Shown: positions 2,780 through 27,059 of the stretch, in pieces
Layout: every line of letters starts with the position of its first letter
How positions within the stretch are numbered: the first letter of the stretch is position 1
NCBI RefSeq assembly: GCF_000227745.2
Contig: NC_018012.1
Location: forward strand, 124,001 to 188,000
Reading direction: 5' to 3'
DNA: 64,000 nucleotides
From: Thiocystis violascens DSM 198
GTDB taxonomy: Bacteria; Pseudomonadota; Gammaproteobacteria; Chromatiales; Chromatiaceae
Notes under the pieces: model-generated
Told to the model about the DNA's origin: nothing
What the model saw: the letters and a program-made list of their open reading frames with translations, nothing else
Database searches by the model: none
Translations under genes and position numbers: made by a program

Positions 2780-2817
2780 CCGCATCCTGCCCCATAACCG
2801 CCAACCAGGTGCCACCC

Positions 2818-3699
2818 ATGCCGCTCCAGATGACCGCCGATCACGACCCGTCGCCCCTGCCGGTGACCCTCTACACCCCCGACAGCCGGCTCCAGCACCC
2901 CGGCCGCCTGCTGCGCGAGATGTTCCGCGATCTCGCCGCCGGGCGCGAACTGGCCTGGCGGCTCGCCGTGCGCGACATCAGCGCCCAATACCGTCAGGCC
3001 GTGTTCGGCCTCCTCTGGGCCTTCATCCTGCCGCTCGCCAACACCCTCACCTGGATCTTCCTCAGCGCCAGCGGCGTCGTCGCCGTCGGCGACACGGCGC
3101 TGCCCTATCCAGTCTACGTCTTCACCGGCGCCATGCTCTGGGCCATCTTCATGGACGCCCTCAACGCCCCGCTGCAACAGACCGCGGCCGCCAAATCCAT
3201 GCTGGCCAAGCTCAACTTCCCGCGCGAGGCCCTGATCGTCTCCGGCATCTACCAGACGCTCTTCAACGCCGGCATCAAGATTGCCCTGCTGCTCCCGGCA
3301 CTGCTCTGGCTCGGCGTCTATCCCGACTGGAGCCTGCTGCTCTTTCCGCTCGGCGTCCTCTCGCTGATCCTGGTCGGCACCGCCGTCGGACTGCTGCTCA
3401 CCCCCGTCGGCATCCTCTACAGCGACATCGGCCGCGGACTGCCGCTGGTCATGCAGTTCCTCATGTACATCACCCCGGTTGTCTTCCCCATGCCCAAGGA
3501 AGGCTTGGCCGCGACCCTCTTCAACCTCAACCCGCTCACCCCGCTCATCGTCACCGCTCGCGACTGGCTCACGGGACTTCCGCCCGAGTTGCTCGGTGCC
3601 TTCGTGACCGTGAACCTGCTCGCCCTCGTTTTGCTGCTCATGGTCTGGGTGGTCTATCGACTCGCCATGCCCATTCTGATTGAGCGCATGAGTGCCTGA
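2818..3699 (+). CDS. wzm: ABC-2 polysaccharide exporter permease (Wzm type)
   Basis: This 293-residue inner-membrane protein matches the Wzm/TagG/KpsM family. After an N-terminal cytoplasmic region ending LAVRDISAQYRQAVFGLLW (a conserved family signature), about six hydrophobic segments follow, including MQFLMYITPVVFPMP and the typical NPLTPLIVTARDWL loop. With an ATPase it moves undecaprenyl-linked O-antigen or capsule across the inner membrane. The ATG at 2818 gives the normal family length; an open frame continues upstream to 2350 but overlaps the previous gene. Its ATPase partner is normally directly adjacent, but here starts 1.6 kb downstream after an inserted segment. Confidence 0.9.
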   Translation: MPLQMTADHDPSPLPVTLYTPDSRLQHPGRLLREMFRDLAAGRELAWRLAVRDISAQYRQAVFGLLWAFILPLANTLTWIFLSASGVVAVGDTALPYPVYVFTGAMLWAIFMDALNAPLQQTAAAKSMLAKLNFPREALIVSGIYQTLFNAGIKIALLLPALLWLGVYPDWSLLLFPLGVLSLILVGTAVGLLLTPVGILYSDIGRGLPLVMQFLMYITPVVFPMPKEGLAATLFNLNPLTPLIVTARDWLTGLPPELLGAFVTVNLLALVLLLMVWVVYRLAMPILIERMSA

Positions 3700-4197: not shown

Positions 4198-4440
4198 ATG
4201 AGTCAGAGGAAGGTCGCAATAACCATTGAGGATGGTGTTCTTGCCAAAGTCGATGCCCTGGTCAGACGCAAGGTATTTAGCAATCGTAGCCGCGCCATCC
4301 AAGAGGCTGTTCTCGAAAAGCTGGAGCGGCTTGAGCGGAACCGCCTCGCGGAGGAGTGTGCCAAACTGGATCCTGCCTTTGAGAGGGCCATGGCTGACGA
4401 AGGATTGTCTCAGGAGCTGGACGCATGGCCAAAATATTGA
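4198..4440 (+). CDS. Ribbon-helix-helix antitoxin (MazE/CopG type)
   Basis: This 80-residue protein begins with a ribbon-helix-helix fold: the beta strand [18 protein letters not shown], then the turn and helix [15 protein letters not shown]. An acidic, helical C-terminus follows that would wrap the toxin. The gene overlaps the next one by 16 bp, so the pair is translationally coupled. It should bind the inverted repeat at 4162-4180 and neutralise the downstream MazF-like RNase. Confidence 0.85.
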
Positions 4441-4763
4441 GAGGCGAGATTCGCTGGGCTGATCTCAATCCGACCATTGGGCGCGAGCAATCCGGTGAGC
4501 GGCCGGTTCTCATTCTGAGCCAAGACATTTTCAATGAGCGCTCTGGCACAGTCATGGCAATGGCGCTGACTAGCCAAGAGCAGCGCGCAGGCTTCCCGTT
4601 GACACACGAGATTCTTGCTTCCAGGCCGCCAAAGCGGTCGTGGGCCAAGATCAGTCAGATTCGGACACTATCGACTGAGCGCATCGGAAAGAAAATTGAT
4701 CGCCTCAGTCCAGACGAGCTTGCCCATGTCATCGAAGGGCTGAATGAGATTATCGGTGGTTAA
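4425..4763 (+). CDS. MazF/PemK-type mRNA interferase toxin
   Basis: This 112-residue protein has the PemK/MazF core: [27 protein letters not shown] is the conserved first strand and loop region (read in two parts, [10 protein letters not shown] and [13 protein letters not shown]), and later [18 protein letters not shown] is the family signature around the catalytic face. MazF-type toxins cut single-stranded mRNA. It overlaps the antitoxin and forms a complete-looking two-gene module between wzm and wzt. Length and motifs are intact, so activity is plausible. Confidence 0.88.
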
Positions 4764-4928: not shown

Positions 4929-5295
4929 GACGAAGCTGGCGCCGGCCATCGAACGCGCCATCGCGCGCAATCGCACGCGGATATGTGCGCCGTCACCGTG
5001 ACGCTCCCGCCTGGAAATTCCCTCGTACCGCGCCAGCGCCGCCTGGCGGCGAGATAAGCCTTCACTTTGCAGATAAGATCCATTATCATCCGCAACCGGT
5101 GATGTGCAGCGATCCTCTCGCCCCCATCCCGCCGGTCGAGCCGCGCCCCTGCAACGGCGCGCTCGACCGGACGCGATGGGGCAGCGTCTATTCCGAGCGC
5201 CCATCACCGACAGCGGCCGCGCGGGATCGGGAAGACGGCACGTCGGACACAGCCGCGCCTTCACCCTTAATCCTTCACCTTTGATCCTTCACCTG

Positions 5296-6519
5296 ATGCC
5301 CGAAACCCTCATCACCGTCGACAACGTCTCTAAGAAATTCTGCCGCAGCCTCAAGAAATCGCTGTGGTACGGCATGCAGGATCTCGGTAACGAACTGCGC
5401 GGACGGCGTCACGGCGGCGATGGCGAACTGCGTCCCGACGAATTCTGGGCGGTCAAGGATGTCAGCTTCGAGCTGAAGCGGGGGGAGTGTCTGGGGCTGA
5501 TCGGGCGAAATGGGGCGGGCAAGACAACGCTGTTGCGGATGCTCAATGGGCTGATCAAGCCGGACCGGGGGCGGATCGAGATGCGTGGGCGGGTGGGTGC
5601 TTTGATTGCGTTGGGGGCAGGGTTTAATCCGGTGTTGACGGGGCGGGAGAACCTCTATGTAAATGCGTCCATTCTCGGTTTCAGCAAACAGGAAATTGAT
5701 GCCAGGTTTGACGATATCGTCGAGTTTGCTGGCATTGAAGAATTTATTGACACACCAGTACAAAATTATTCTAGCGGGATGGCTGTCCGCCTTGGTTTTT
5801 CCGTTGCCGCTCATCTGAACCCAGATATTCTCATCGTCGATGAAGTGTTGGCGGTTGGAGATGTTGGGTTTCGGATGCGCTGCTTTGAACATATGCTTCA
5901 GTTGAAAAAAAAGGGGGTTGTTATCGTCTTTGTTACTCATAGCATGATAGAGCTTCCACGTATCTGCGAAAGGGCGATCGTTGTTACAGGTGGGCAAATA
6001 GTATTTGAAGGTCTAGTAGAAGTTGCGATTGGCATCTATGAGAAAGATGTACTAGAAGCATCATGTGAAAAGCCGCATTCTGAATCTCCCGCATGGATTG
6101 AATCCGCATCATTAATTGATGAGTCCGGCCGTCCTAAATGCAGTTTTCATACAGGAGAAAACATCGTTATCGATATCCGTCTCAGAAGCCGAATATTTGT
6201 AGAAAATGCTCGGCTCATCGTTCACATTAATTCAGCGACTACCGGAATACTAGGATCTTTTTCCTCTTATCATAAGGGGCTTCCAATTAAAGTTGATAAC
6301 TCTGGAACTCAAATTATTTTAACGATTAGATCTATTCCGCTGTTGATAGGAGGTTATAGTTTTAATTTCAGTCTTTATGGTCCTGGTGTATCTGACTACT
6401 GGCATCAACAAATTAATGTCGCCCGTTTCCATATAGACGCCCCTCCAATCGATACGCTTGGATATGGATTGTGTCATTCAATTGCATTTGATCATGAATG
6501 GTCGAGCGGAATTGGCTGA
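5296..6519 (+). CDS. wzt: ABC polysaccharide exporter ATPase with carbohydrate-binding tail (Wzt type)
   Basis: This 407-residue protein has an N-terminal ABC ATPase (about 1-245): Walker A GRNGAGKTT, signature YSSGMAVRLGF, Walker B ILIVDEVLAVGD and switch His in VTHS. The remaining 160 residues resemble the Wzt C-terminal domain that recognises the capped O-polysaccharide. It powers export with the upstream permease. The ATG at 5296 matches the family start; upstream frame is spurious. Codon use changes abruptly from GC-rich to AT-rich at about 5650, within the nucleotide-binding domain, which suggests a recombination junction that swapped the glycan-specific end with the following cassette. 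Confidence 0.9.
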   Translation: MPETLITVDNVSKKFCRSLKKSLWYGMQDLGNELRGRRHGGDGELRPDEFWAVKDVSFELKRGECLGLIGRNGAGKTTLLRMLNGLIKPDRGRIEMRGRVGALIALGAGFNPVLTGRENLYVNASILGFSKQEIDARFDDIVEFAGIEEFIDTPVQNYSSGMAVRLGFSVAAHLNPDILIVDEVLAVGDVGFRMRCFEHMLQLKKKGVVIVFVTHSMIELPRICERAIVVTGGQIVFEGLVEVAIGIYEKDVLEASCEKPHSESPAWIESASLIDESGRPKCSFHTGENIVIDIRLRSRIFVENARLIVHINSATTGILGSFSSYHKGLPIKVDNSGTQIILTIRSIPLLIGGYSFNFSLYGPGVSDYWHQQINVARFHIDAPPIDTLGYGLCHSIAFDHEWSSGIG

Positions 6520-6564: not shown

Positions 6565-7215
6565 GTGAAATTTCATAGAAGCGCAAGGCGCTTTATCAAT
6601 TCTTTTGGTTACTACCGAGTTTCACCGGACAACTTAATAGAGTTGATTTGTAGTCAACTCAAATATAAATATTCAGAAGATACAGAGTTATTCAATGATT
6701 CTGGGCCTGGCCGTTTGGCATTTCCTGATTTGATTCCTTGTGATGCTGTAGGTATCGAGCTTGGTGTAGCCGAAGGGTATTTTTCAGATGCCATACTTGC
6801 ATCTCAAAAAGTTGTAAGACTTTATTCAGTCGATTGCTGGGCGGACCATCATGATAGTGCTGAATATATTCGCGCTGTTGCAAGGCTTTCAAAATACGGT
6901 ACTCGCAGTGTTGTGATGCGTTCATTTTTTGATGACGCTCTTCCTTTATTTTCCGACGGTTTCTTTGATTTTATTTATATTGATGCTTATGCCCATACTG
7001 GGCAGCAAGATGGCGATATATTAAATAAGTGGTACCCAAAAATTAAAGATGGCGGGATCTTTTCTGGCCATGATTATGATTCGCAGGAATGGCCAAAAAC
7101 AGTAGAAGTTGTTGATCGATTTGCTCGCGCAACTGGCAATACCATATTGCTATTACCAGGTGTTAATTCATGTAATCCAGAAGACAAATATCCAAGCTGG
7201 TATTTTGTTAAATAG
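6565..7215 (+). CDS. SAM-dependent methyltransferase
   Basis: This 216-residue protein has class I methyltransferase motifs: GIELGVAEGYFS (motif I, SAM binding), DFIYIDAYAHTGQQ (motif II/III region) and GGIFSGHDYD (motif post-III). It resembles the Methyltransf_24-like enzymes found in O-antigen loci, where they methylate sugars or cap chains. The start is a GTG at 6565. The gene is AT-rich, like the next several genes, and 11 bp separate it from the following ORF. Its acceptor cannot be inferred. Confidence 0.75.
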   Translation: MKFHRSARRFINSFGYYRVSPDNLIELICSQLKYKYSEDTELFNDSGPGRLAFPDLIPCDAVGIELGVAEGYFSDAILASQKVVRLYSVDCWADHHDSAEYIRAVARLSKYGTRSVVMRSFFDDALPLFSDGFFDFIYIDAYAHTGQQDGDILNKWYPKIKDGGIFSGHDYDSQEWPKTVEVVDRFARATGNTILLLPGVNSCNPEDKYPSWYFVK

Positions 7216-8486: not shown

Positions 8487-9743
8487 ATGCAAATCGCGCA
8501 GATTAGTAAGGCGGATAGCGCCGGAGGTGGCGCAAGTCGCGTTGCAGAAGACTTGACAATACTTATGAATAAATCAGGACATTGCGCGACTCACTATGTT
8601 TCTTACTCGTCGAAAGGGTATAACCAGCAGCGTCAACCGCTCTACGGATCAAATCCATTTATCAATAGGAATACAAGGCGCGCCCATCATCTTCTACGGA
8701 GAGTTGGTCTTTCCGAACTTGTGCCATTAGAACTGCCAGCTTTGTTAGCCGGAAACATCAAAAGCTTTGATATTCTGCATTTTCATGACTTATCGTCGGC
8801 AATGTCGCCATTGACGCTCGCCTGGTTGTCACGCACCATGCCGGTGGTATGGACTGTTCATGATTGCTCTCCGTTTACAGGTGGATGTCTTTATCCCATG
8901 GATTGTGAAGGTTATAAGTCTCGATGTGGTTCCTGCCCACAGATAGGCTCATGGCCTTTGGATTCTGTTGTTGACGGGACACGTCTTTCCCGCGCTTTGA
9001 AGCGGCGTATTCATCGAACAGGTCGGGTGCAGTGTGTGACTCCGTCGAAATGGATGGCGCAGATGGCGATGGCGAGCGGTCTGCTTTCCACAGAGCCAAT
9101 GGTCATAACGAATGGTGTGGATACCGAAACCTATAAGCCGGCCGCCAATTTTTCGGAGCTTCGGAGGCGTTTAGGATTGCGTGATGATGTACCGATTCTA
9201 TTGGTGTCGGCGGGGCATATCCGTGACCCAAGAAAAGGTATTCAACTTGCGTTAGAGGCTGTGCGGGCGATCGATAGAGAGTTCCGTCCAGTTGTTTTAG
9301 CGATGGGCGCAATGCACAGGGACGACGAAGGTTTGTTTCAGGGTTTACGCTGGTTTTCGACTGGTTATATTTCGGATCCTGCACAGGCTGCGCAGTATTA
9401 TGCCTGTGCCGATTTTTTTCTTTTTTGCTCGCTTGCGGATAATCAGCCGTTAGCCGTCCTGGAATCCATGTCCTGCGGTACGCCAGTCATTGGTTTTGCT
9501 TGCGGTGGTATCCCTGAATTAGTAATAGACAATGTATGCGGTAAACTGGTGCCGCCTGAAGATATGACTTCGCTAATCGAAGTGATGCGCTTTGTTTTGA
9601 GAGAGAGAATCGCGACTGACTTGGGGCGCGCAGCGCGCAAAAGGATAGAGTCGTATCATTCTCAGGAAGTACATTTGGCCGCACACTTAGAATTGTATGA
9701 CGCTATCTTAAGCAGGCAGGAAATTGCTCATGTCTCGTATTAG
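8487..9743 (+). CDS. GT4-family glycosyltransferase
   Basis: This 418-residue GT-B enzyme contains the N-terminal glycine-rich loop SAGGGASRVAEDL and the Cys-containing segment HDCSPFTGGCLYPMDC, a hallmark of the WcaC/WbaZ-like subgroup. The GT4 donor site is LESMSCGTPVIGFACGG with PEL following. It would add a hexose from a nucleotide sugar to a lipid-linked glycan at the inner face of the membrane. The stop overlaps the next gene by 14 bp. Donor and linkage are not predictable from sequence. Confidence 0.85.
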   Translation: MQIAQISKADSAGGGASRVAEDLTILMNKSGHCATHYVSYSSKGYNQQRQPLYGSNPFINRNTRRAHHLLRRVGLSELVPLELPALLAGNIKSFDILHFHDLSSAMSPLTLAWLSRTMPVVWTVHDCSPFTGGCLYPMDCEGYKSRCGSCPQIGSWPLDSVVDGTRLSRALKRRIHRTGRVQCVTPSKWMAQMAMASGLLSTEPMVITNGVDTETYKPAANFSELRRRLGLRDDVPILLVSAGHIRDPRKGIQLALEAVRAIDREFRPVVLAMGAMHRDDEGLFQGLRWFSTGYISDPAQAAQYYACADFFLFCSLADNQPLAVLESMSCGTPVIGFACGGIPELVIDNVCGKLVPPEDMTSLIEVMRFVLRERIATDLGRAARKRIESYHSQEVHLAAHLELYDAILSRQEIAHVSY

Positions 9744-12164: not shown

Positions 12165-13496
12165 ATGCGGAATACAGTCCAATTGATTACGCAATGGACA
12201 AATATTGCCACGGTTACGGAAGAAGTAATCGCTCCGATTTTGACCGCCTACGTCGCCTGGATATTACAGCACGCCCGTCGACATCAGATCGAACGGCTGT
12301 ATTTCGTCTCGCGGGACGGTCAGATTCTTCAATTGATCGCATCCGTGCTGCGTCGGGATGGCGATCCGGAATGCCGGTATCTATACGGATCCAGACAGGC
12401 TTGGTTTCTGCCGTCGGTTCGGAATCTCGATGAAGAATCACTGAAATGGGCTTGGATGAAAGGCTTGTCGCGGTCGGGGCGCGACATTCTGCGGCGATTG
12501 GAAATCGACGAAGAACCTGTCTTGTCCATTCTGGCGCATGAAGGTTTTGATGAAGCAAGCCTGGCGCGGCAACTGGATGAAAATGAACTTGAGCGCATCA
12601 AGGCTTTGATTAGAAAAGAGCCGATTGCATCGCTACTTTTAAGGAAGGCAGAAACCAGACGGATGCTTCTGTTGGAGTACCTGAGACAGGAGGACTGTCT
12701 TGATGGGGCGAATTGGGCGCTGGTTGATATTGGTTGGAAGCTGAACTGTCAACATTCCTTGTCTCGCGTTATGAAATATACAGAGGCGATTCCTGATGTC
12801 ACTGGTTATTATTTCGGTGTTTCATCTGATCATGCTCCATTGGAACAGGCTGGTGCTGTCTATCCTTTTATTTCTCACAGCAGATCTCGGCTGCGCAGTA
12901 CGCTAAAGGCAGACTGGATCTTCAAGCGCTCGACGGTCGCTGTCATCGAGAATTTTTTCGTCATTTCCGATTATGCCTCAGTGTGTGGTTATCGTCGCAT
13001 CAGTTCGCGTGTCGAGCCAATTTTTAAAGACGCTGTCGAAAAGCGTGAAGGTGGGTCGCTTGCTAGGATCGTTCACGCGACGGTTTTGGCTTATGTAAAT
13101 GAGTTGGCGAGTACCAGAAGTGTGGATCCGGAATCCGAAGATTTTCAGCGTCGATCCATCATGATGATGAAACGGTTTTGTCTGTATCCGAAGCCTATCG
13201 ACGTGATGGGGATTGCCTTATTGCCCATCAACGACGATCAAACGCACGGTGAAGAGCATTGGAATCAGCTTGCTGTCCGGATAGATATGCGATTGTTTCT
13301 CAGGGTTGTTGGTGATTATCTGACTGGGCGCTCGGAGGACAGCGATCAGCTTAGGTTTTCATGGGTGGGAGGCTCGGCCGCGATTTCGAGTTGGCCTGTT
13401 CGGATCGTTATCATATCGGGTAGCGCGTTGAGCAGAACCTTCGATTCGTTGCGCATCTGGTTGGATCGCTCGTTGAAATGGACTAGGACCAAATAA
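12165..13496 (+). CDS. Stand-alone COG5610-type C-terminal domain protein
   Basis: This 443-residue protein shares with the preceding gene the paired signatures LYFVSRDGQILQLIAS and WALVDIGWKLNCQ, spaced about 140 residues apart, but lacks the HAD domain. It therefore appears to be the second-domain module alone, perhaps a partner or paralogue. The ATG at 12165 has GGGAGC upstream. Its stop overlaps the GT2 start by one base (TAATG), so the two genes are coupled. No catalytic function is established; involvement in glycan assembly or modification is inferred from context only. Confidence 0.65.
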   Translation: MRNTVQLITQWTNIATVTEEVIAPILTAYVAWILQHARRHQIERLYFVSRDGQILQLIASVLRRDGDPECRYLYGSRQAWFLPSVRNLDEESLKWAWMKGLSRSGRDILRRLEIDEEPVLSILAHEGFDEASLARQLDENELERIKALIRKEPIASLLLRKAETRRMLLLEYLRQEDCLDGANWALVDIGWKLNCQHSLSRVMKYTEAIPDVTGYYFGVSSDHAPLEQAGAVYPFISHSRSRLRSTLKADWIFKRSTVAVIENFFVISDYASVCGYRRISSRVEPIFKDAVEKREGGSLARIVHATVLAYVNELASTRSVDPESEDFQRRSIMMMKRFCLYPKPIDVMGIALLPINDDQTHGEEHWNQLAVRIDMRLFLRVVGDYLTGRSEDSDQLRFSWVGGSAAISSWPVRIVIISGSALSRTFDSLRIWLDRSLKWTRTK

Positions 13497-14440
13497 TGAC
13501 ATTGCAGAGTTCCTTTGGTGATTTAGGATGCGTTATCGTCACCCGCAATCGTTTCCAGCTTTTGCAGCGCTGCCTTCACGGTCTGCTGAATCAAACACGG
13601 CTCCCCGAAACCCTGATCGTCGTCGATAACGGCTCGGCGGATGACACGTCCTCGCTCTTCCAGACTGGTCCCTTCTCTGCTGATCCGCGCATCGACTATG
13701 TGCGGCTTGAGGGCAATTCCGGCGGTGCTGGTGGTTTCCATACTGGTATCGCCCGCGCGATGGAGCAGGGTTGCGACTGGATCTTCGTGATGGATGACGA
13801 TGGTTGCCCCGCGCCTGATGCCCTGGAACGTCTGATGGCGGTCGATCCGAACCCGGCGGCGATTCATGCGGCGGCGGCGCTGGTCGATTCGGGCGACCCG
13901 CGCGAGTTCGTGTGGCCGGCGGCTCTGGTTGCAGGGGATGACAAGGACAAAATCCTGATGCGGGTCGATGAACTGACCGGGCCGGTGGTGCCGGTGGTGA
14001 ATGCGCCCTTCATCGGGATGCTGTTCCACCGTACCCTGATCGAGCGGATCGGCCTGCCTGAAAAGGATTTTTTCGTCAGCTTCGAGGATGGCGAGATGTG
14101 CGCCCGCGCCTGGGCTCGGGCCAGCGGGGTACGTTTGGTGCCCTCGGCCGTGGTCCGTCATCCGCGCATCGAGCGGCGCTGTTTTCAAGTGGGTCGGCGG
14201 AAATTCTGCGTGATCGCCCTGGCGCCCTGGCGGCGCTATTACGACACCCGCAATCGGTTGGTGATCGCGAAGTGGCATTTTGGGCATTGGCTGTGGACCG
14301 AGGCGCTGCCCGGCACCCTGCTGCGCTGGCTGATGACGCTGGCGGTGCAGCCGAATCGACGGGCGCAGTCGGCGGCCTTCGCGCGCGGGATCTTCGATGG
14401 CCTGACCGGGCGGCTGGGGATGCGTTGGGCGCCGCCGTGA
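13496..14440 (+). CDS. GT2 glycosyltransferase, GlfT1-like (probable galactofuranosyl/rhamnosyl transferase)
   Basis: This 314-residue GT-A enzyme has the opening CVIVTRNRFQLLQRCL, the strand LIVVDNGSADDT, the subgroup signature GNSGGAGGFHTG and the metal-binding motif VMDDDGCP. This signature set is shared by the initiating galactofuranosyltransferase GlfT1 and bacterial rhamnosyltransferases. The acceptor-side acid is in FFVSFEDGEMCARA. With a UDP-galactopyranose mutase 1.1 kb away, UDP-galactofuranose is a plausible donor. Base composition is again GC-rich here, marking the end of the AT-rich cassette. Confidence 0.8.
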   Translation: MTLQSSFGDLGCVIVTRNRFQLLQRCLHGLLNQTRLPETLIVVDNGSADDTSSLFQTGPFSADPRIDYVRLEGNSGGAGGFHTGIARAMEQGCDWIFVMDDDGCPAPDALERLMAVDPNPAAIHAAAALVDSGDPREFVWPAALVAGDDKDKILMRVDELTGPVVPVVNAPFIGMLFHRTLIERIGLPEKDFFVSFEDGEMCARAWARASGVRLVPSAVVRHPRIERRCFQVGRRKFCVIALAPWRRYYDTRNRLVIAKWHFGHWLWTEALPGTLLRWLMTLAVQPNRRAQSAAFARGIFDGLTGRLGMRWAPP

Positions 14441-14530
14441 TGCTTTCGGCAAAATCGAAACAAGCCGGGTAGCCGGGTAGATATACCGTCTTGGAATCAC
14501 AGGCATGCATGATTATTTTTGGTCGCAACG

Positions 14531-14818
14531 ATGCGTCTGACTGAAGACCAGAAGCAAATAATCCGCAATGCGGGGCTGCGACATTTTCGAGTCGTCCCTC
14601 GATTATTCGGCTCTCGGCTGGATGATCATCTTCACGGCGGGGATATTGATCTCTTTATTCCGGGGAACTGGTCCGCCGATGAGCTTGTCACTCGGCGTTT
14701 GCGTTTCTGTGCGGAATTACGACGTGAACTCGGCGATCGGAAAATCGATGTCGTGGTGGGAACAAGCACGCCATCTGCGATTCAAGAGCATGCAAGACAG
14801 ACGGGGGAACCGATATGA
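14531..14818 (+). CDS. MNT-type nucleotidyltransferase domain protein
   Basis: This 95-residue minimal nucleotidyltransferase has the motif FGSRLDDHLHGGDIDLFI, i.e. GS followed about ten residues later by D-x-D, as in the antitoxin half of HEPN/MNT systems. The ATG at 14531 is chosen over an upstream TTG. It overlaps its would-be partner by ATGA. Because the partner is cut short, the module is probably dead or an orphan antitoxin. CCGGGTAG repeats precede it at about 14465. Confidence 0.75.
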   Translation: MRLTEDQKQIIRNAGLRHFRVVPRLFGSRLDDHLHGGDIDLFIPGNWSADELVTRRLRFCAELRRELGDRKIDVVVGTSTPSAIQEHARQTGEPI

Positions 14819-14890
14819 GGCCGCTGGCGGAACTGTTCGACGAGTGCGACCGTCATCTCCAGGCGCTTGAAGAAGCCGTGCAGCGCTGTC
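14815..14890 (+). pseudogene. Truncated partner of the MNT protein (HEPN-like start)
   Basis: The ATG overlaps the MNT stop (ATGA) and encodes MRPLAELFDECDRHLQALEE, the kind of start seen in HEPN-type partners in this gene order. After about 25 residues the reading runs into sequence that makes sense only on the opposite strand (Rpn-like). The open frame to 15336 is proline/glycine-rich antisense. The remnant end is approximate. Confidence 0.5.
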
Positions 14891-14919
14891 CGCAACCCTT
14901 GACGAAGGAGCGCTTTGCG

Positions 14920-15042
14920 ACCCCCCTCTCGCACCTGTTTCAAATTCCGCTGGATGGTGCGCTGCCAGCGCAGTTTATCCAGGCGCGACCTGTGGAGAAA
15001 ACGAGCGCGCTCTTCCTCGGTAAATCCGAACGGAGTCTTCAT
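14920..15042 (-). pseudogene. Short Rpn-type C-terminal fragment
   Basis: About 41 residues (GFTEEERARFLHRSRLDKL then RWQRTIQRNLKQ) align by eye with the C-terminal region of the neighbouring Rpn fragment (GFSEKERDYHRYQSRQEAL then RLQRAVQRALDE). It is a second, diverged copy of the same region, without any catalytic domain. Confidence 0.45.
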
Positions 15043-15073
15043 GGCCTGCCGGTGCGCGACCGCCCGCGTGGCG

Positions 15074-15526
15074 TCAACCTTCGTTTCGCCGGCTCAGTAG
15101 CGCCTGGAGCCGCGCAACTTCGGCTAGGGCCTCTTCTTTGGCCTGGCGCTCGGCCTCTTTGGCTTGGAGCGCCTCTTCCTTGGCCTGGCGCCCCGCATCG
15201 GCCTCCGCGCGTTTCTCATCCAGCGCCCGCTGGACAGCGCGCTGCAGGCGCAATGCCTCCTGGCGTGACTGGTAGCGGTGGTAGTCGCGTTCTTTCTCGG
15301 AAAAGCCGTTCAGGGTGCTCATGGCGTGCCTCATGATGGGATGCTGCATCCAGTCGGGAAGACGGGCGGGGTCGAGATGTTCGCCGTCCTTGAGGAATTT
15401 TAGCCAGCGCTCGGTCTCGGTGGAGACCTGCTGGACATGGAATTTGCCCAGTTCGAAAAGTCGGATTGAGCCGTGGTCGATGAGCGTCCGCCCCTGCTCG
15501 TCGCGCAGACAGTAGCGGTGGGGGCA
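15074..15526 (-). pseudogene. Rpn-family nuclease/transposase, C-terminal part
   Basis: Reading the minus strand from the end of the UGM gene gives RYCLRDEQGRTLIDHGSIRL, FELGKFHVQQ, WLKFLKDGEHLDP, LPDWMQHPIM, then GFSEKERDYHRYQSRQ and an alanine/glutamate-rich coiled tail (QAKEEALQAKEAERQ). This is the latter half of a PD-(D/E)XK Rpn-type protein. The catalytic N-terminal part is missing, cut at the 3' end of the UGM gene. The insertion probably also destroyed the adjacent HEPN-like gene. Confidence 0.65.
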
Positions 15527-16951
15527 CTACCTCTTTTCCATCCACTCCGGATAAGGCCAGACATTGTAGCGGCCGTTGACCAGGTTCGGCTGGAACAAGG
15601 TCAGCTCCTCGCGGCCGTTCACCAGCCGTTCGGCGATCTCGACGCCCTGCATCAGCGAGTGATCCTGATTGCTCACCTCGTAGGTCCAGGCACCGAAGCG
15701 TCCGCGCGCGTAGAGGTCGCGCGCTTCGAGCGCGGGTAGCACGTCACGCAGGATGGCATCGCGCTCGACCGATGGCGTGGGGTAGCCGTGATGGAGGCGC
15801 CGATGCCAGCGGCTGAGGATCGGATCTTCCTCGCCGATCAGATGCGTGGCGCGCATCCCTCGGATGGCATCCGCGACGACGCGCTCCGCATCGACGGGCT
15901 TGCAGGGGCTTTCGGAGACCTCGGCCATGAGCGACCAGGTGGCGCCGGGTTCGGGGACGTTGTTGGGGCTGTAGTTGCTGAAAACGGTGACGCGGTAGAA
16001 GGGGCAGTCGTCCTCGGGGAAGTACATCCAGCACTTGGTGCGCAACGCTTCCGGCGGCTGGCCGCGTAACCCGATGCCGACGACATGGACGCTGGAGTAT
16101 TTGAGTCGGGCGGTCCGTTCGATCAGGGCCGGATCGCCGACGAGCTGGCAAAGGCGGTCGAGCGGGAGGGTGCTGATGAGTTGGTCGTAGCTGAAGCAGG
16201 CGCCGCTGGCCGTGGTGGCGTGGCGACGCTCGGCATCGAGGGCGACGATGCCGTCGCCGAAGTGTTTATGCCGCTCCGGAATATGCGCGGCCAGACCGTC
16301 CCAGATGGCGCCGGTGCCGCCGTGCAGCGGGAAGCGGAAGGTGTTGTTCGGACCCCAGCTCAGGTTGTCTTCATCCAGGCAGATGGACTTGAGCACGGCG
16401 CGCAGATCGGGAACCGCGACCCGTTCGCCGACCCAGTGCGCGTTCATCATCGCCGGCGGATAGGCCCAGACCTTGAAGTTGTAGGGCAGAAGGAAGATGT
16501 CCGCCATGCCCTGGCCGAAGGTGCGCAGGATCCATTGCTCGAAGTCCGCCGGGCGCTCGCCAGACGCGCTTTCCGCCGCCGCCATCAGACCCTGCACACA
16601 GCTCCACATCTCCGGGCCGGGGAGACGGTGCAGGTTGTATTGGAAGGGGTAGGGCACGAAGCGCTCGCGCATCCACACCCAGCTTTCGCGCTGGTGGTCG
16701 ATCCAACCCTCCCGACCCAGCGCCAGTTCCATGTAGCGGTCGAACGTCTGGTAGTGCGAGAACTGGACATGGCCGCCCAGATCCCAGGTGAATCCCTGAT
16801 CGTCGACTAAGGAGGCCGCAAGACCGCCCGCCTGGCCTGCCGCCTCGATCAACAGAAAATCGGTCCCGTCGAGTTCGAGCAGGCGCAATGCCGCGCCCAG
16901 GCCGGTCGGGCCGGCGCCCAGAATGAGAAAGCGATGATGTTCGGATGGCAT
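15527..16951 (-). CDS. Eukaryotic-type UDP-galactopyranose mutase
   Basis: This 474-residue FAD enzyme is predicted to interconvert UDP-galactopyranose and UDP-galactofuranose. It has the Rossmann motif GAGPTGLGAALRLL, GGLAASLVDD and WDLGGHVQFSHYQTFD with the conserved active-site His, then PYNFKVWAYPP, WGPNNTFRFPLHGGTG, KCWMYFPEDDCPFYR, HGYPTPSVERDAIL and RGRFGAWTYEVSNQDHS. These blocks follow, in order, those I know from fungal UGM (Aspergillus GlfA type), and length is nearer the eukaryotic form (about 510) than the bacterial Glf (about 380). Automatic annotation would probably say amine oxidase or protoporphyrinogen oxidase-like. It lies opposite the GlfT1-like gene, separated by gene debris. 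Confidence 0.8.
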   Translation of the reverse strand: MPSEHHRFLILGAGPTGLGAALRLLELDGTDFLLIEAAGQAGGLAASLVDDQGFTWDLGGHVQFSHYQTFDRYMELALGREGWIDHQRESWVWMRERFVPYPFQYNLHRLPGPEMWSCVQGLMAAAESASGERPADFEQWILRTFGQGMADIFLLPYNFKVWAYPPAMMNAHWVGERVAVPDLRAVLKSICLDEDNLSWGPNNTFRFPLHGGTGAIWDGLAAHIPERHKHFGDGIVALDAERRHATTASGACFSYDQLISTLPLDRLCQLVGDPALIERTARLKYSSVHVVGIGLRGQPPEALRTKCWMYFPEDDCPFYRVTVFSNYSPNNVPEPGATWSLMAEVSESPCKPVDAERVVADAIRGMRATHLIGEEDPILSRWHRRLHHGYPTPSVERDAILRDVLPALEARDLYARGRFGAWTYEVSNQDHSLMQGVEIAERLVNGREELTLFQPNLVNGRYNVWPYPEWMEKR

Positions 16952-17082: not shown

Positions 17083-18222
17083 ATGCGTATTGGTGTCCTT
17101 TGGAAGCGCCGCTATATGGGACATGACGTGATTGCCGATCGTTATGCGCGGCTGTATGAACTACCATCCGGACTGGCGGAATCGGGGCATGCGGTACGGG
17201 TGTTCTGTCTCGCTTATCGTCGGACTAGTCCGGTGCGGCGTGTCGATGCGATTGCCGCGCCGGGCGAATTGACCTGGCAGGGTTACAATGCCGGTCCATT
17301 CGTGATTGGCGGTCTTCCCGGTTACCGGCGCGTGGTGATTACGGAACTGCACGCCTTCAAACCCGATGTGCTGCTCGGCGGATCCGATGCCCTGCATGTC
17401 GTGCTGACCCATTCTTTCGCCAGTCGTTTATCCATTCCTTACGTCATCGATCTCTACGACAATTTCGAGAGCTTCGGCCTGACCCGTTTGCCCGGACTGC
17501 TCCCGCTCTACCGGCGCGCGCTGCGGCAGGCGCGCGCCATCAGTGCGGTCAGCGCTTCGCTCGCGGACTATGTTCGGGAGTTGGCGCCGGGTGTGCTGGC
17601 GATCGCCCTGGAGAGCACCATTGACCCACGGGTCTTCGTGCCCTCTGATCGGCGGGCCGCGCGCGATCTGCTCGGGTTGCCTGCCGATGGTCGGCTGATC
17701 GGCGTCTGCGGCGGGCTTGATCGCAGTCGGGGCATCGGGTTGGTCTATCGCGCCTTTTTGCAACTCGCCGCATCCGATCCGACCCTGCATCTCGTTCTGG
17801 CCGGCGACCCCGATCCGCATGAGCCGCCGCCGGATCACCCGCGTCTGCTAAAGCTCGGCCGCATCCCGCACGAACGGATGCCGAATTTCTACAGCGCGCT
17901 CGATCTGGCCCTGGTCCCGATGCTCGACACGCCTTTCGGTCGCTATGCCTTCCCGCAGAAGTCCTACGAGATCATGGGCTGCCGCACCCCGATCCTGGCC
18001 GCGCGGGTCGGTGCACTGGCACAGACGCTGGCGAACTATCCCGATTGCCTCTATGCTCCCGATGACCAGGCCGAACTCGAAACACGGATTCGCGGTCAGT
18101 TGACAGCGCCTGTGATCCCGCAGATCGAGATTCCAAGCTGGCGGGAGCAGGCGGTGAGGCTAGAGGGGGTGTTGGCTGATGCCTGCGGGCGTTTTGGGGG
18201 TAGGCGAGCCTGTATTTCGTGA
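17083..18222 (+). CDS. GT4-like glycosyltransferase
   Basis: This 379-residue GT-B protein has Rossmann-like halves: MRIGVLWKRRYMGHD at the N-terminus, a central acceptor-to-donor linker with AISAVSASLADYV, and the donor side FGRYAFPQKSYEIMGCRTP followed by ILAARVGAL. The E in the SYEIMGC segment corresponds to the EX7E-type donor glutamate. It is monocistronic with its own AT-rich upstream region (16952-17082), divergent from the UGM gene. It probably contributes to the same glycan. Confidence 0.75.
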   Translation: MRIGVLWKRRYMGHDVIADRYARLYELPSGLAESGHAVRVFCLAYRRTSPVRRVDAIAAPGELTWQGYNAGPFVIGGLPGYRRVVITELHAFKPDVLLGGSDALHVVLTHSFASRLSIPYVIDLYDNFESFGLTRLPGLLPLYRRALRQARAISAVSASLADYVRELAPGVLAIALESTIDPRVFVPSDRRAARDLLGLPADGRLIGVCGGLDRSRGIGLVYRAFLQLAASDPTLHLVLAGDPDPHEPPPDHPRLLKLGRIPHERMPNFYSALDLALVPMLDTPFGRYAFPQKSYEIMGCRTPILAARVGALAQTLANYPDCLYAPDDQAELETRIRGQLTAPVIPQIEIPSWREQAVRLEGVLADACGRFGGRRACIS

Positions 18223-18506: not shown

Positions 18507-18687
18507 TATGAAACTCGGGATGCGTGGCGAAGTAATGAGCGATGCCGCCACAGCCGGTTCCGACTTCGAGCAGAGTCAGCGGCTGTCGACGGCTTGCCAA
18601 GTATAGGAGTTGCTCTATCTTCCGTGCCTTCTTGTGGCGCGATGACAGGTCGGTGAAGGCATGGGGTTGGCGTTTAAGGTCGCTCAA
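18507..18687 (-). pseudogene. Methyltransferase N-terminal fragment cut by a REPIN-like element
   Basis: The first 60 residues include KKARKIEQLLYLASRRQ and the SAM-binding motif I LLEVGTGCGGIAHYFA, typical of class I methyltransferases. The open frame then enters the repeat element and continues as low-complexity sequence. Its start overlaps the stop of the next GT4 gene (ATGA type), so it was the last gene of a three-gene minus-strand operon. Confidence 0.65.
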
Positions 18688-20075
18688 CGTCGAACCCCGC
18701 TACGATCCATTAGCTCTCTGAAAAGATCTCCGAATGCCCTGGCGCTCGCTGCACGCGAGAAATTCGTCGCGGCGTGACGCTGCGCCTCGTTGGCGAGGGA
18801 TCGGGCCTGGGTCGGTTCGGCGACCAGACGACGAATGGCCTCGGCGATCTGTTCGGGAGCACGCTCGTCGATCAACAATCCGGTGCGCTCGTGGATCACG
18901 GCATCGGGGATGCCGCCCAGCCGGGTGGCGATGACCGGGGTTCCGGCGATCATGGCCTCGATGATGGTGAGTCCCTGCGCTTCGACCCAGCCGTTCGGTG
19001 CGCGACGCGATGGCGCGACGAAGTAATCGGCGGCGCTCATCCAGGCGCCGATTTCGGCGCGCTCGACCCAGCCGGGGAAGAGGATGTGCTCACCGAGCCC
19101 CAGCGTCGCGGCCAGTCGCTCCAATTCGGGGGCTTCCGGTCCCGCGCCAATGATCAGAGCGGTGACGTTCGGCAGTTCGGCGCGTAGCAGCGCAACCGCC
19201 CGAATCAGATCCTCCGGTCCTTTCTCATCGATGATTCGTCCCACGAAGGCCAGCAGTGGGCCATTGCCCCGGCGATAACGCGCCCGGATTTCGACGGATT
19301 GTTGGCGCTCGGCATGGGTGGGCGGGTTGGTCGCGACACCCATGGGAATGCGCATGAGTTGCGCCGGTTGAGGCGCCAGTTCGAGCAGGGCGGATTGGGT
19401 ATAGCGGCTATTGACGGTGACGGCGTCGGCGTGACGGATCACCATCCGTTTGAAACCTTGTAGCAGGCGTCCCGACAGACCGAAGAGATCTCCGCCATGG
19501 ACGGTATTGACGTGCGGCAGGCCGCCGATCCGCTGCGACAGGATGCCGACGAACCCTTGCGGCAGCATCCAGTGGGTGTGCAGCACGTCATAGCGCCGGG
19601 TGGCGAGCCGGCGCGCGACGGCCGCCCATTCGGCGGCCACCAGGGCCGGCAGCTTGAGCTTGTCGAGTGGACGCTTGCGCAGATTGACGAGCGCCCCGCC
19701 CTGATAGCAGACGGTTTCGAGCGATGCGGGCCAGAGATAGCGGAAGCGTTCGACATTGACCCCGTCGAGCCTTTCCGACACGGCGGCATTTGGAGCATGG
19801 GGCGCGAGCACGTCAACCTGCCAGCCGAGCGACTGAAGGTCTTGCGCCAGATTCAACACGAAAGGGGTGGTGTTGTCGCCAGTCCAGCGCGGGAAGCTCG
19901 ATGTGACGCATAGCACCCGGCCAGTCTTTTGCTCGTTCCCGCGCTTCCGCGTGGGAATGCCGTCGTACCGCTCCAGCGGTGCCTGTCGGGGACGCGACGC
20001 GGGAGCGTCGCGCACTGCTCCCACGCGGGAGCGTGGGAGCAAGAGGCGTTTTGTGTCGGGCTTTTTCGCCATCAC
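18684..20075 (-). CDS. GT4-family glycosyltransferase with a repeat-derived N-terminus
   Basis: This is a glycosyltransferase of up to 463 residues. The true fold starts at RVLCVTSSFPRWTGDN (about residue 53); further motifs are VLHTHWMLPQG, AFVGRIIDEKGPEDLI and the donor site EAQGLTIIEAMIAGTPVIA. The first 50 residues are encoded largely by a dispersed inverted-repeat element (19931-20047) read in frame, giving an Arg/Pro-rich leader. The start is uncertain: either the ATG at 20075, overlapping the upstream GT2 gene, or no nearer ATG exists before the fold. Operon order is GT2, this gene, methyltransferase fragment. Confidence 0.8.
   Translation of the reverse strand: MMAKKPDTKRLLLPRSRVGAVRDAPASRPRQAPLERYDGIPTRKRGNEQKTGRVLCVTSSFPRWTGDNTTPFVLNLAQDLQSLGWQVDVLAPHAPNAAVSERLDGVNVERFRYLWPASLETVCYQGGALVNLRKRPLDKLKLPALVAAEWAAVARRLATRRYDVLHTHWMLPQGFVGILSQRIGGLPHVNTVHGGDLFGLSGRLLQGFKRMVIRHADAVTVNSRYTQSALLELAPQPAQLMRIPMGVATNPPTHAERQQSVEIRARYRRGNGPLLAFVGRIIDEKGPEDLIRAVALLRAELPNVTALIIGAGPEAPELERLAATLGLGEHILFPGWVERAEIGAWMSAADYFVAPSRRAPNGWVEAQGLTIIEAMIAGTPVIATRLGGIPDAVIHERTGLLIDERAPEQIAEAIRRLVAEPTQARSLANEAQRHAATNFSRAASARAFGDLFRELMDRSGVRR
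19931..20047. repeat. Inverted-repeat element with CGTGGGA hairpin ends inside a GT4 gene
   Basis: The ends GCTCGTTCCCGCG..CGCGTGGGAATGC and GCTCCCACGCGGGAGCGTG form imperfect inverted termini, each itself a hairpin, around about 60 bp containing smaller hairpins. The element lies in the 5' coding part of the GT4 gene without breaking its frame. Confidence 0.7.
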
Positions 20076-20974
20076 CGATCCGCTTCCCGATAGCTGGTCG
20101 CCGTAATCTGTTCCGACACCAATCCCATCATCAGGACGATGACCGCCGCGCTGAAGAGCAGGGCGCTCATGTTGGTGAAGCGGTGCATGGTGATGAAGGT
20201 ATTCAGGTAATTCGCGGCGCCGGCCAGGAAGAACGCCAGGCTCACCGGGAAGAACAGCTTCAGCGGCGAGTAGAGCGTCGCGACCTTGAAGATGATGAGC
20301 AGGAAGCGGATGCCGTCCTTAATAGGGCGGATGTGGCTGCCGCGGGCGCTGCCGCGCCGGGCGGTGACGATGGGGACATAGTCGATCGGGTTGCCGGAGC
20401 GGAAGAAGGCCATGGTGATGGTGGTCGGGTAGGAGAAGCCGTTGGGCAACAGGTAGAGAAAACGCCGGAAGGGCTCGGCGCGCGCGGCGCGGAAACCGGA
20501 GGTGAGATCCCGCACCCTGAAGCCGGTCATGAGGCTGGCGAACCAGTTGTAGAAGCCGTTGGCGATGCGGCGTCCTGGGCTGGCCTGCGAGTCCTTGCCG
20601 CGCGCGCCGACGGCCATGTCGTAGCCGGCCTCCAGGCGGGCGAGCAGGCGGGGGATGTCCGCCGGGTCGTGCTGGCCGTCGGCGTCCATGAAGATCAGAA
20701 CGTCCCCCCGCGCGGCGCGCGCGCCGGACTTGACCGAGGCGCCATTGCCCAGGCTGTAGGGATGAGTGATGACGCGCGCGCCCCGCTCGCGGGCGATGTC
20801 GGGCGTGCCGTCGGTCGAGCCGTCGTCGACCACCAACAGTTCGGCGTGCGGATAGAACTTGGCGATGCTGTCGAGCAGGGGGCCGATGGTCGGTGCCTCG
20901 TTCTTCGCGGGCAGGATGATCGACAGCGAGACTTCCCGTGTGTCTGGTGTCGATTCATGAGTGGCGTGTTTCAT
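20072..20974 (-). CDS. GT2 polyprenyl-phosphate glycosyltransferase (DPM1-like)
   Basis: This 300-residue protein has a GT-A domain with LSIILPAKNEAPTIGPLLD, VVDDGSTDGTPDIA, the metal site FMDADGQHDPADI and the subfamily signature RVRDLTSGFRAARAEPF, followed by two C-terminal membrane helices. It resembles dolichyl/undecaprenyl-phosphate mannosyl or glucosyl transferases, which build lipid-linked sugar donors for membrane GT-C enzymes. A TMTC-like membrane protein is encoded upstream on the same strand, a possible user of such a donor. It overlaps the next gene by 4 bp. Confidence 0.85.
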   Translation of the reverse strand: MKHATHESTPDTREVSLSIILPAKNEAPTIGPLLDSIAKFYPHAELLVVDDGSTDGTPDIARERGARVITHPYSLGNGASVKSGARAARGDVLIFMDADGQHDPADIPRLLARLEAGYDMAVGARGKDSQASPGRRIANGFYNWFASLMTGFRVRDLTSGFRAARAEPFRRFLYLLPNGFSYPTTITMAFFRSGNPIDYVPIVTARRGSARGSHIRPIKDGIRFLLIIFKVATLYSPLKLFFPVSLAFFLAGAANYLNTFITMHRFTNMSALLFSAAVIVLMMGLVSEQITATSYREADR

Positions 20975-25689: not shown

Positions 25690-25806
25690 TTCCCGTCAGT
25701 CTTTGCAGCGCCCCTGGATGCGGTCTTCGCGCATGGCCCCGGCGGCGACAGGCTGCGCCAGCCTTGGCCGCGCGGGCTCTTTCTGGTCACAACCAAGCAC
25801 TGAATT

Positions 25807-27009: not shown

Positions 27010-27059
27010 GGCCGGCGCGCCCTTCAACTCCATCCATCCGCCCTGGAATCATCGCCATC

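Follow-up and report, generated by a model that had tools for sequence, protein, structure and literature searches.

Predicted eukaryotic-type UDP-galactopyranose mutase facing a putative galactofuranosyltransferase in a glycan locus of Thiocystis violascens

In bacteria, the presence of galactofuranose (Galf) is predicted by finding Glf. For the UDP-galactopyranose mutases (UGMs), passages of PMC3624792 report identities of 47-60% among the eukaryotic enzymes and of 14-18% between the eukaryotic and the bacterial group, state that R182, R327, H63 and Q107 of Aspergillus fumigatus UGM (AfUGM) are absent from bacterial UGMs, and mention that the eukaryotic UGM has been proposed as a target for drugs against fungi and trypanosomes. 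A second acidic motif has been described for the transferases GlfT2 and PamC (parts of PMC12269835 and PMC7168186). In the pamABC galactan locus of Kingella kingae, a mutase and a GT2 galactofuranosyltransferase are encoded together in one LPS locus, and the mutase was likened to E. coli UGM, that is, to a canonical Glf (passages of PMC12269835); PamA is of the DUF4422 type. In the open-licence literature, nothing was found on bacterial UGMs of the eukaryotic type or on a "bacterial origin" of GLF, and searches directed at purple sulfur bacteria gave no paper either.

In Thiocystis violascens DSM 198, the window (the whole stretch of 64,000 nucleotides analysed here) contains a flavoprotein gene and a GT2 gene which face each other, with 1,086 bp between them. 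The features of the locus are as follows.

2815..3699 (+), probable Wzm-type ABC-2 permease with 4 hydrophobic stretches; NF050109 at 36.7 bits, below the cut-off of 380; no Pfam match; ORF called by the program from 2350, its N-terminal part judged spurious
5104..6519 (+), Wzt-type ABC ATPase with a Wzt_C domain (Pfam/NCBIfam); the true start is probably downstream of 5104
6565..7215 (+), methyltransferase (Methyltransf_24, Pfam)
8487..9743 (+), GT4-family glycosyltransferase (Pfam)
12165..13496 (+), protein without a Pfam or NCBIfam match, adjoining the GT2 gene here and in locus L009 (42% identity)
13496..14440 (+), GT2 glycosyltransferase, GlfT1/GlfT2-like, putative galactofuranosyltransferase, 314 aa (GNSGGAGGF, DDD)
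14441..15526, spacer between the facing genes
14531..14818 (+), nucleotidyltransferase-like small ORF within the spacer
15527..16951 (-), predicted eukaryotic-type UGM (FAD), 474 aa, by sequence, fold and residues
17083..18222 (+), GT4-family glycosyltransferase (Pfam), adjacent to the UGM gene and divergent from it
18684..20075 (-), GT4-family glycosyltransferase (Pfam)
20072..20974 (-), GT2-family glycosyltransferase

Our main reading, to which we give a probability of roughly three in four, is that the flavoprotein is a working FAD-dependent UGM of the eukaryotic type, that the facing GT2 adds Galf to the glycan of the locus, which would be exported by Wzm/Wzt, and that the UGM gene has a bacterial and not a recent fungal or protist source. 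With reduced flavin, the enzyme would interconvert UDP-Galp and UDP-Galf, the flavin probably attacking the anomeric carbon as a nucleophile, as was shown for other UGMs (in part after passages of PMC3624792). The GT2 would move Galf from UDP-Galf onto the glycan, and the Wzm/Wzt exporter would carry the glycan across the inner membrane. Family, fold, active-site residues, the lack of a PF03275 match and the linkage of close GT2 relatives to Glf or to this type of UGM were observed here, and catalysis, donor specificity, product and export are inferred. The best reading is a Wzm/Wzt-exported glycan with Galf; Galf was predicted for the surface glycan in a preliminary description of this DNA and appears to be the likeliest product.

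In the translations, both ORFs were found where the preliminary description had placed them, with the flavoprotein blocks in the order given there (GGHVQFSHY, then PYNFKVWA, then KCWMYFPEDDCPFYR) and with GNSGGAGGF and MDDDG in the GT2 product. A phmmer search of PDB sequences with the flavoprotein gave A. fumigatus UGM at 8e-149 and Trypanosoma cruzi UGM (TcUGM) at 1e-144; these values, like that of the Pfam match of the GT2 (2e-22), are far beyond chance. UGMs led the PDB matches of the flavoprotein by over 100 orders of magnitude. The identity is 47% to AfUGM and 49% to TcUGM, which are themselves 47% identical, so that the protein falls into the range published for the eukaryotic group. 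Of the AfUGM positions checked, 23 of 25 are identical; for the Table-3 contacts this holds for 19 of the 20 residues checked, that is, those other than L46, D38, S39 and V242, with a Ser at G456 as the exception. R182, R327, H63 and Q107 are all retained among the FAD and substrate contacts. In the Pfam scan, Amino_oxidase and NAD_binding_8 were the only matches and PF03275 (Glf) gave none; the NCBIfam matches, PRK07208, HpnE and desaturases, all lie far below their cut-offs. PF03275 also had zero matches in the organism's own genome, where the window gene is the sole UGM detected by the searches made.

The Pfam and sub-cut-off NCBIfam matches would also fit a protoporphyrinogen oxidase, a carotenoid desaturase or an amine oxidase. 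Against this stand the PDB matches, the conserved substrate residues and the predicted fold: the model (pLDDT 92.1) compares with AfUGM at Z 49.0 and with TcUGM at Z 48.8, versus 30.2 for protoporphyrinogen oxidase and 29.4 for the Deinococcus radiodurans UGM (3hdq), and is thus nearer to the eukaryotic UGMs than to Glf or the oxidase. Such an identity was rejected on the PDB matches and the fold, and its probability is negligible. Neither finding which the preliminary description had named as speaking against a UGM was obtained, since the protein does not group with protoporphyrinogen oxidases and R182, R327 and the UDP-binding contacts are kept. From sequence and model, the product of 15527-16951 is classed as a UGM of the eukaryotic type, as had been proposed, and not as a bacterial Glf, with mutase catalysis as the predicted activity.

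The enzyme might act on another nucleotide sugar, such as UDP-GalNAc, UDP-arabinopyranose or dTDP-galactopyranose, and give a different furanose. A UDP-N-acetylgalactopyranose mutase exists in the Glf family (4mo2), and two genomes, Thiodictyon and Rariglobus, carry both a eukaryotic-type UGM and a strong PF03275 match, so that the two mutases are possibly not interchangeable. In Thiodictyon, a canonical Glf (TIGR00031, 342.9 bits versus a cut-off of 303.75), a GT2 and a facing eukaryotic-type UGM lie side by side. A PF03275 match was absent from 46 of the 50 genomes surveyed, which represent 50 of the 80 UGM loci. However, the window UGM shares every AfUGM residue checked that contacts uracil, diphosphate or galactose (Y104, F106, Q107, F158, R182, N207, Y317, R327, Y419, Y453 and N457), and a different substrate is considered improbable. 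UDP-Galp is kept as the predicted substrate.

In one scan, 451 stretches related to the window UGM were identified, of which the best 80 come from 12 phyla; in phages, relatives were found on two viral contigs, and a repeat viral scan gave the same two. The eukaryotic-type lineage is not unusual for bacteria, contrary to what had first been assumed. In NCBIfam, the models matched by the members scanned (35 of 35) are named "hypothetical protein". Within its own family the gene is patchy: none of six congeners carries it, and among 26 other family members one has a relative of 28% identity and 25 have none at E 1e-20; sampling of the relatives' genomes gave almost no further UGM copies.

A tree was calculated from 65 of 91 rows, the 26 left out being L075 (a wrongly called ORF), the distant L002, L003, L007 and L092, and 21 near-duplicate Bacteroidota. 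The window UGM lies inside a Chromatiaceae clade (100/97), within a 61-row clade of bacterial and phage sequences (100/96), and both eukaryotic sequences fall outside the latter. An AU test with these two eukaryotic sequences rejected a clade of the window, Af and Tc enzymes (p 9.4e-5), and did not reject Af and Tc as a single clade (p 0.152). Thus, the window UGM is eukaryotic by type, whereas eukaryotic descent, judged from two eukaryotic sequences, is not supported. The sequence type common to fungal and trypanosome UGM could point to recent acquisition of the gene from fungi or protists; with two eukaryotic sequences, the tree and the AU test rejected this explanation, which is very improbable. 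By our main reading, bacteria would have passed the gene down or exchanged it among themselves. In the block GGHVQFSHY, the Gln is present in all 82 bacterial and phage rows (79 of the 80 loci, the window and two phages) and an Ile in the fungal and the trypanosome enzyme, and the block, regarded at first as fungal, is the bacterial form.

The product of 13496-14440 belongs to the GT2 family (PF00535, Glycos_transf_2, 2e-22). The DDD at residues 100-102 and D198 are invariant in 7 of 7 sequences, and D198, matched by eye, would fall into the second acidic motif known from GlfT2 and PamC. The best NCBIfam match was GlfT1 (NF050113), with 94.7 bits against a cut-off of 330, and the TIGR01556 rhamnosyltransferase model matched with 58.9 bits. 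The model of the protein is poor (pLDDT 67.8); its top fold match is GlfT2, ahead by little (Z 13.6, rmsd 4.6, 248 aligned), in a list in which the absence of a family carries no evidential weight. Thus, the assignment as GlfT1-type holds insofar as the protein is a GlfT1 relative with close relatives linked to Glf, and fails insofar as it is not a GlfT1 equivalog. The GT2 is described here as a GlfT1/GlfT2 relative and a putative galactofuranosyltransferase.

In 274 genomes of the class, all four independent GT2 relatives with NxGGAGGF lie less than 2.7 kb from Glf (77-2,620 bp to the Glf domain match), whereas none of the 11 weaker GT2 matches without NxGGAGGF comes from a Glf-positive genome. 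Four of these 11 unlinked GT2s were scanned against NCBIfam and score best with TIGR01556, two of them above its cut-off, whereas the four Glf-linked GT2s and the window GT2 score best with GlfT1. In genome G045, Glf lies in a row with two GT2s which are 35-39% identical to the window GT2, and the GT2s of G724 and G727 (312 and 253 bits) also adjoin Glf. Five relatives were found on plasmids or phages, with GGAGGF in L097, L098 and L101, GGSGGF in L100 and neither in L099. Since L101 alone has a Glf in the flanking DNA covered, at a distance of about 0.85 kb and with 251 bits, yet all five have GlfT1 as their best NCBIfam match, neither the motif nor the model proves the donor. Both were rejected as proof of Galf transfer, and GNSGGAGGF, taken initially as a galactofuranosyltransferase signature, does not identify one by itself.

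The GT2 may transfer another sugar, for example rhamnose, with the mutase serving a different transferase. The TIGR01556 match would agree with this, as would two motif-bearing relatives with no Glf within 6 kb, one from Lactiplantibacillus and one on a Palleronia plasmid (32% identity) beside the rhamnose genes rfbABCD. In contrast, the closest relatives outside UGM loci adjoin Glf, the unlinked GT2s scanned prefer TIGR01556, and the top fold match is GlfT2; another donor thus seems unlikely, and transfer of Galf is preferred. A close GT2 is present at only 4 of the 80 UGM loci (tblastn E 1e-70 or better, the next at 3e-15; flanks of up to 10 kb, often less), and a general pairing of this GT2 type with the UGM was rejected. 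Genome-wide, Thiocapsa marina has no close GT2 (best 60.5 bits).

In L009, the spacer between the GT2 and UGM genes has only 20 bp. A homologue of the GT4 at 17083..18222 is found near the UGM in L008-L011 (47-76%), and in L014 the UGM gene sits between Wzm and Wzt. Of the 39 neighbouring ORFs upstream of such UGMs on the same strand, 22 match GT2 and 6 ABC_tran. These counts come from 57 loci, since 22 near-duplicates were taken out of the 79 (39 upstream and 31 downstream ORFs of at least 150 aa, at most 260 bp away, chosen longest-first without a gene caller, some of them wrong).

As scanned, Pfam and NCBIfam hold no model of their own for this second UGM lineage, and Galf may therefore be overlooked in bacteria, namely in Bacteroidota, Verrucomicrobiota, Acidobacteriota, Omnitrophota and purple sulfur bacteria. 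We tentatively suggest, while regarding it as rather doubtful in its full extent, that bacteria hold two far-diverged UGM lineages, of which the "eukaryotic" one is old and widespread (phages and at least 12 phyla), supplies Galf in organisms that count as Galf-negative as long as Glf is the sole enzyme sought, and gave rise to the fungal, trypanosome and nematode UGMs by transfer from bacteria. The origin of the eukaryotic UGM thereby becomes a testable question.

Compared with known systems, the window GT2 resembles GlfT2 (4fix, 9nj0) in fold match, in the DDD motif and in the Asp of the second motif matched by eye, but differs in having ED in place of DD at this motif, as do the GT2s of L008 and L009; GlfT1 is its best NCBIfam match, yet the score is far below the cut-off. 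The pamABC locus of K. kingae likewise combines a mutase with a GT2 galactofuranosyltransferase, but its mutase is of the canonical Glf kind. The mutase is similar to AfUGM (3ute/3ukh) and TcUGM (4dsg) over nearly the full length, in fold and in the FAD and substrate contacts. It differs from AfUGM by its bacterial host, by a Gln where AfUGM has Ile65 and a Ser where it has Gly456, and by the lack of about 22 residues between the N-x-P-E and WS blocks (10 alignment columns plus 12 AfUGM residues not printed in the phmmer alignment), which TcUGM lacks likewise; from both enzymes it is set apart by its separate bacterial clade. With bacterial Glf (PF03275/TIGR00031), it shares the predicted reaction and the overall flavoprotein fold, at Z 29.4 for D. 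radiodurans and 27.0 for E. coli (1i8t), whereas the identity is 13-21% in the structural alignments listed and PF03275 is not matched; close relatives of the window GT2 adjoin Glf as well.

The flavoprotein is encoded opposite a family 2 glycosyltransferase (GT2) in a source genome assembled as a single contig of 5,017,071 bases, of which the window covers bases 124001-188000. The open reading frames and motifs of the pair agree with the preliminary description:

13496-14440, plus strand, GT2 of 314 aa (GNSGGAGGF)
14531-14818, nucleotidyltransferase-like ORF in the spacer 14441-15526
15527-16951, minus strand, flavoprotein of 474 aa

Among PDB sequences, 14 of the 16 matches at E 0.01 or better were UDP-galactopyranose mutases (UGM) of A. 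fumigatus (Af) or T. cruzi (Tc), with values of 8e-149 to 1e-144. The other two were an oxidoreductase (2e-4) and a protoporphyrinogen oxidase (1e-3), and canonical bacterial UGM (Glf) was absent at this threshold. The identity amounts to 47% with AfUGM and 49% with TcUGM, which are themselves 47% identical; a review (PMC3624792) gives 47-60% for eukaryotic UGMs compared with one another and 14-18% for their comparison with prokaryotic enzymes. The AlphaFold2 model (pLDDT 92.1, pTM 0.91) was superimposed on AfUGM with Z 49.0 (rmsd 1.9, 468 residues) and on TcUGM with Z 48.8 (1.7, 457), followed by M. xanthus protoporphyrinogen oxidase with Z 30.2 (3.3, 409) and D. radiodurans UGM with Z 29.4 (3.4, 358).

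Of the 25 AfUGM positions compared, 20 were obtained from Table 3 of PMC3624792, and I65, F66, H68, W315 and R91 were chosen in addition. Identity to AfUGM was found at 23 of the 25, the exceptions being I65 (Q63 in the window protein) and G456 (S427). R182, R327, H63 and the uracil-binding Q107 are retained as R177, R320, H61 and Q104, and equivalents of these four are described as missing from bacterial UGMs in PMC3624792. The eukaryotic type is thus borne out by sequence, contact residues and fold, Af and Tc UGM being far closer than Glf or protoporphyrinogen oxidase. On these grounds, the flavoprotein is very probably (about 0.9) a mutase, which would interconvert UDP-Galp and UDP-Galf (Galf, galactofuranose).

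Among the members scanned, the eukaryotic-type bacterial UGM has no model of its own in Pfam or NCBIfam. The window UGM matched only Amino_oxidase and NAD_binding_8 in Pfam, and all its NCBIfam matches lay far under their cut-offs. All 35 members searched in NCBIfam matched the PRK07208 'hypothetical protein' models, ten of them also TIGR00031, weakly (best 7e-8). The Glf domain PF03275 had no match in the genome of the window, nor in 46 of the 50 genomes carrying a eukaryotic-type UGM; the other four comprise two with strong matches (262.7 and 246.5 bits) and two with weak ones (34.2 and 32.6 bits).

This UGM belongs to a bacterial lineage that is widespread. When an alignment of four sequences was used to search one genome from each of 84,980 species of bacteria and archaea, 451 stretches encoding a relative were identified. 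The four nearest belong to purple sulfur bacteria, namely Thiohalocapsa (85%), Halochromatium (80%), Thiodictyon (76%) and Thiocapsa marina (74%), which makes a member of the Chromatiaceae the most likely host. The best 80 of the 451, biased towards the query since the most query-like were kept and two exact peptide patterns were required, span 12 NCBI phyla. The tally of these 80 comprises Bacteroidota (46), Pseudomonadota (8), Verrucomicrobiota (6), Sumerlaeota (4), Omnitrophota (3), Acidobacteriota (3), Myxococcota (2), five phyla with one each and three relatives without a group. In a tree of 65 rows, with two Streptomyces relatives as root, the window UGM falls inside a Chromatiaceae clade of five rows (support 100/97). 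This clade lies within one of 15 rows (100/97) that also includes Acidobacteriota, Omnitrophota, Armatimonadota and others, and the latter within a clade of 61 bacterial and phage rows (100/96) with Af and Tc outside. Grouping of the window protein with Af and Tc was rejected (p-AU 9.4e-5) and grouping of Af with Tc alone was not (p-AU 0.152), the eukaryotes being sampled by these two sequences, each on a long branch. The view of a lineage unusual for bacteria therefore has to be given up, and with it the reading of GGHVQFSHY as a fungal block, because its Gln is present in all 82 bacterial and phage rows and both eukaryotes have Ile. In total, 20 of the 25 positions are invariant in these 82 rows, including the Gln replacing Ile65; at T18, F106, G456, Q458 and S461, 1 to 8 rows deviate from the commonest letter.

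In the taxonomic group of the source genome, the gene occurs only sporadically. A relative (28% identical) was present at E 1e-20 in one of 26 other family members and in none of six congeners, and at E 1e-60 none was identified in other genomes among 398 of the phylum and 274 of the class.

UGM relatives were also seen on viral contigs and plasmids and, with other neighbours, in Bacteroidota. Two viral contigs, L004 (7998-16213) and L005 (100-5912), encode a eukaryotic-type UGM 56% identical to that of the window, directly followed by a ParB/methyltransferase-like gene, next in L004 by a protein matching the glucosyl-HMC glucosyltransferase family, and then by terminase, portal and head protease; genes were called by family search in L004 and by reading only in L005. 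These genes could form a cassette that glycosylates DNA or the surface from a furanose donor. The Streptomyces plasmids L006 and L093 code for a flavoprotein 41-42% identical, annotated as FAD-dependent oxidoreductase, which keeps most UGM contact residues, with Met for Gln458 and Ala for Ser461; a glycosyltransferase gene lies three genes downstream. On the Methylomagnum and Pantoea plasmids (L007, L092), longer proteins have a C-terminal part 31-33% identical to UGM with the checked arginines kept, and in Methylomagnum a glycoside hydrolase gene and then galT and galK follow. In Spirosoma and relatives (for example L050, 9143-14210), a GT2 of about 250 aa precedes UGM and an ORF of about 905 aa follows; in L050, the GT2 weakly matches ArnC and dolichyl-phosphate hexose transferase, and the ORF matches nothing in Pfam or NCBIfam. 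These Bacteroidota loci perhaps represent a different Galf pathway.

For the facing GT2, the best NCBIfam match was the galactofuranosyltransferase GlfT1, with 94.7 bits (the cut-off is 330), followed by rhamnosyltransferase TIGR01556 with 58.9 bits. Its fold model is weak (pLDDT 67.8); the top match was Nocardia GlfT2 (Z 13.6, rmsd 4.6, 248 residues, 23% identity), then M. tuberculosis GlfT2 (Z 12.4), other GT-A enzymes trailing by no more than one to two Z units. Among the 398 phylum genomes, only one other, G045, gave matches at E 1e-30, two GT2s that are both preceded by a Glf gene in the same orientation. A seven-sequence profile including this pair (A2) matched at E 1e-22 in 15 of the 274 class genomes, 13 after removal of the own genome and G045. 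PF03275 is present in 18 of the 274 (the two class surveys agree in genome number and in the genomes shown) and in four of the 13. In these four, the A2 score of the GT2 and its distance from the Glf domain match are 311.8 bits and 77 bp (G724), 253 bits and 1,105 bp (G727), 121 bits and 2,620 bp (G615), and 116.6 bits and 109 bp (G726). PF03275 was not found in the other nine (11 A2 matches, at most 106 bits), and 13 further Glf genomes of the class had no such GT2 match. NxGGAGGF occurs in all four Glf-linked GT2s and in none of the 11 unlinked ones. In eight GT2s scanned, GlfT1 scored best for the four linked and TIGR01556 for four unlinked, two of which exceed its cut-off.

Five further relatives (26-33% identity) were obtained from plasmid and phage records. 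GlfT1 was the best-scoring NCBIfam model for all five, and three (L097, L098, L101) contain GGAGGF. No Glf was identified within 6 kb either side of the GT2 of Palleronia (L097, adjoining rfbABCD), Lactiplantibacillus (L098) or Paracoccus (L099, without the motif), nor in 7.7 kb in total around L100 (GGSGGF); the search around these four covered flanking DNA of up to 6 kb per side. The A2 scores of L097-L099 (158-184 bits) exceed those of two of the four Glf-linked class GT2s. Motif, model and score alone thus do not give the donor, and GGAGGF or a best GlfT1 score was rejected as stand-alone proof on account of these relatives. On L101 (3634-6520), a scaffold from human faeces deposited as Bacteriophage sp., the GT2 with GGAGGF adjoins a canonical Glf (251 bits) at about 0.85 kb; this is either phage-borne or wrongly labelled bacterial DNA. 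The Glf proximity in G045, G724 and G727 is the better argument for Galf. From the linkage of these close relatives, the window GT2 probably transfers Galf, a confidence lowered after the plasmid and phage results. Of the GlfT1-like assignment made beforehand, the best match and the relatives beside Glf stand, but the score remains far under the cut-off.

A close homologue of this GT2 (tblastn, E 1e-70 or better; next match 3e-15) is present in four of 80 UGM loci, L008, L009, L010 and L014. The facing order is conserved in the window, L008, L009 and L010 (Thiodictyon), with spacers of 1,086 bp in the window, 20 bp in L009, 218 bp in L010 and about 2.8 kb, containing a GT4 homologue, in L008. 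Since the spacer is only 20 bp in L009, the content of 14441-15526, where the nucleotidyltransferase-like ORF is followed by a second ORF without Pfam match, looks like an insertion. In L010, which shares its contig with L142, three genes adjoin: a canonical Glf (342.9 bits, where TIGR00031 requires 303.75), the GT2 (490 bits, itself a member of the profile used; NLGCSAGF at the motif position) and the facing eukaryotic-type UGM. For Thiocapsa marina (L011), UGM and GT4s were identified and a close GT2 was not found.

The surrounding glycan locus contains the following features:

2815-3699, probable Wzm (36.7 bits to a galactan-exporter permease model, cut-off 380)
Wzt with Wzt_C domain (Pfam)
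methyltransferase and several GT4/GT2 enzymes

This content makes an ABC-exported surface polysaccharide likely, and Wzm/Wzt export into an O-antigen or other surface glycan is fairly likely. In L014, UGM is flanked by genes for an ABC-2 permease and for Wzt, and the gene ends overlap. In L085, an ORF containing the Wzt match stops 81 bp upstream of UGM; in L013, the match itself ends about 0.5 kb upstream. Same-strand UGM neighbours were Glycos_transf_2 in 22 and ABC_tran in six of 39 upstream cases, several of the 22 being related, not independent, Bacteroidota loci, and in five and one of 31 downstream cases. In the window, probable Wzm and Wzt are separated by a gene for a PemK/MazF-like toxin (4425-4763) and a small ORF upstream of it (together 4198-4763). 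Outside the glycan genes, 24424-28529 encodes a protein with an L-PSP endoribonuclease domain, a peptidase of the imelysin type and a di-haem oxidoreductase.

A 2005 paper reportedly dealt with eukaryotic GLF genes. The literature searched, including PMC8092308, PMC3624792, PMC1852411 and PMC7278926, contained no account of bacterial eukaryotic-type UGMs. UGM and Galf chemistry itself is already known; its eukaryotic type, by contrast, seems not to have been described as so broadly spread among bacteria, nor as a neighbour of a GT2 with close relatives adjoining Glf.
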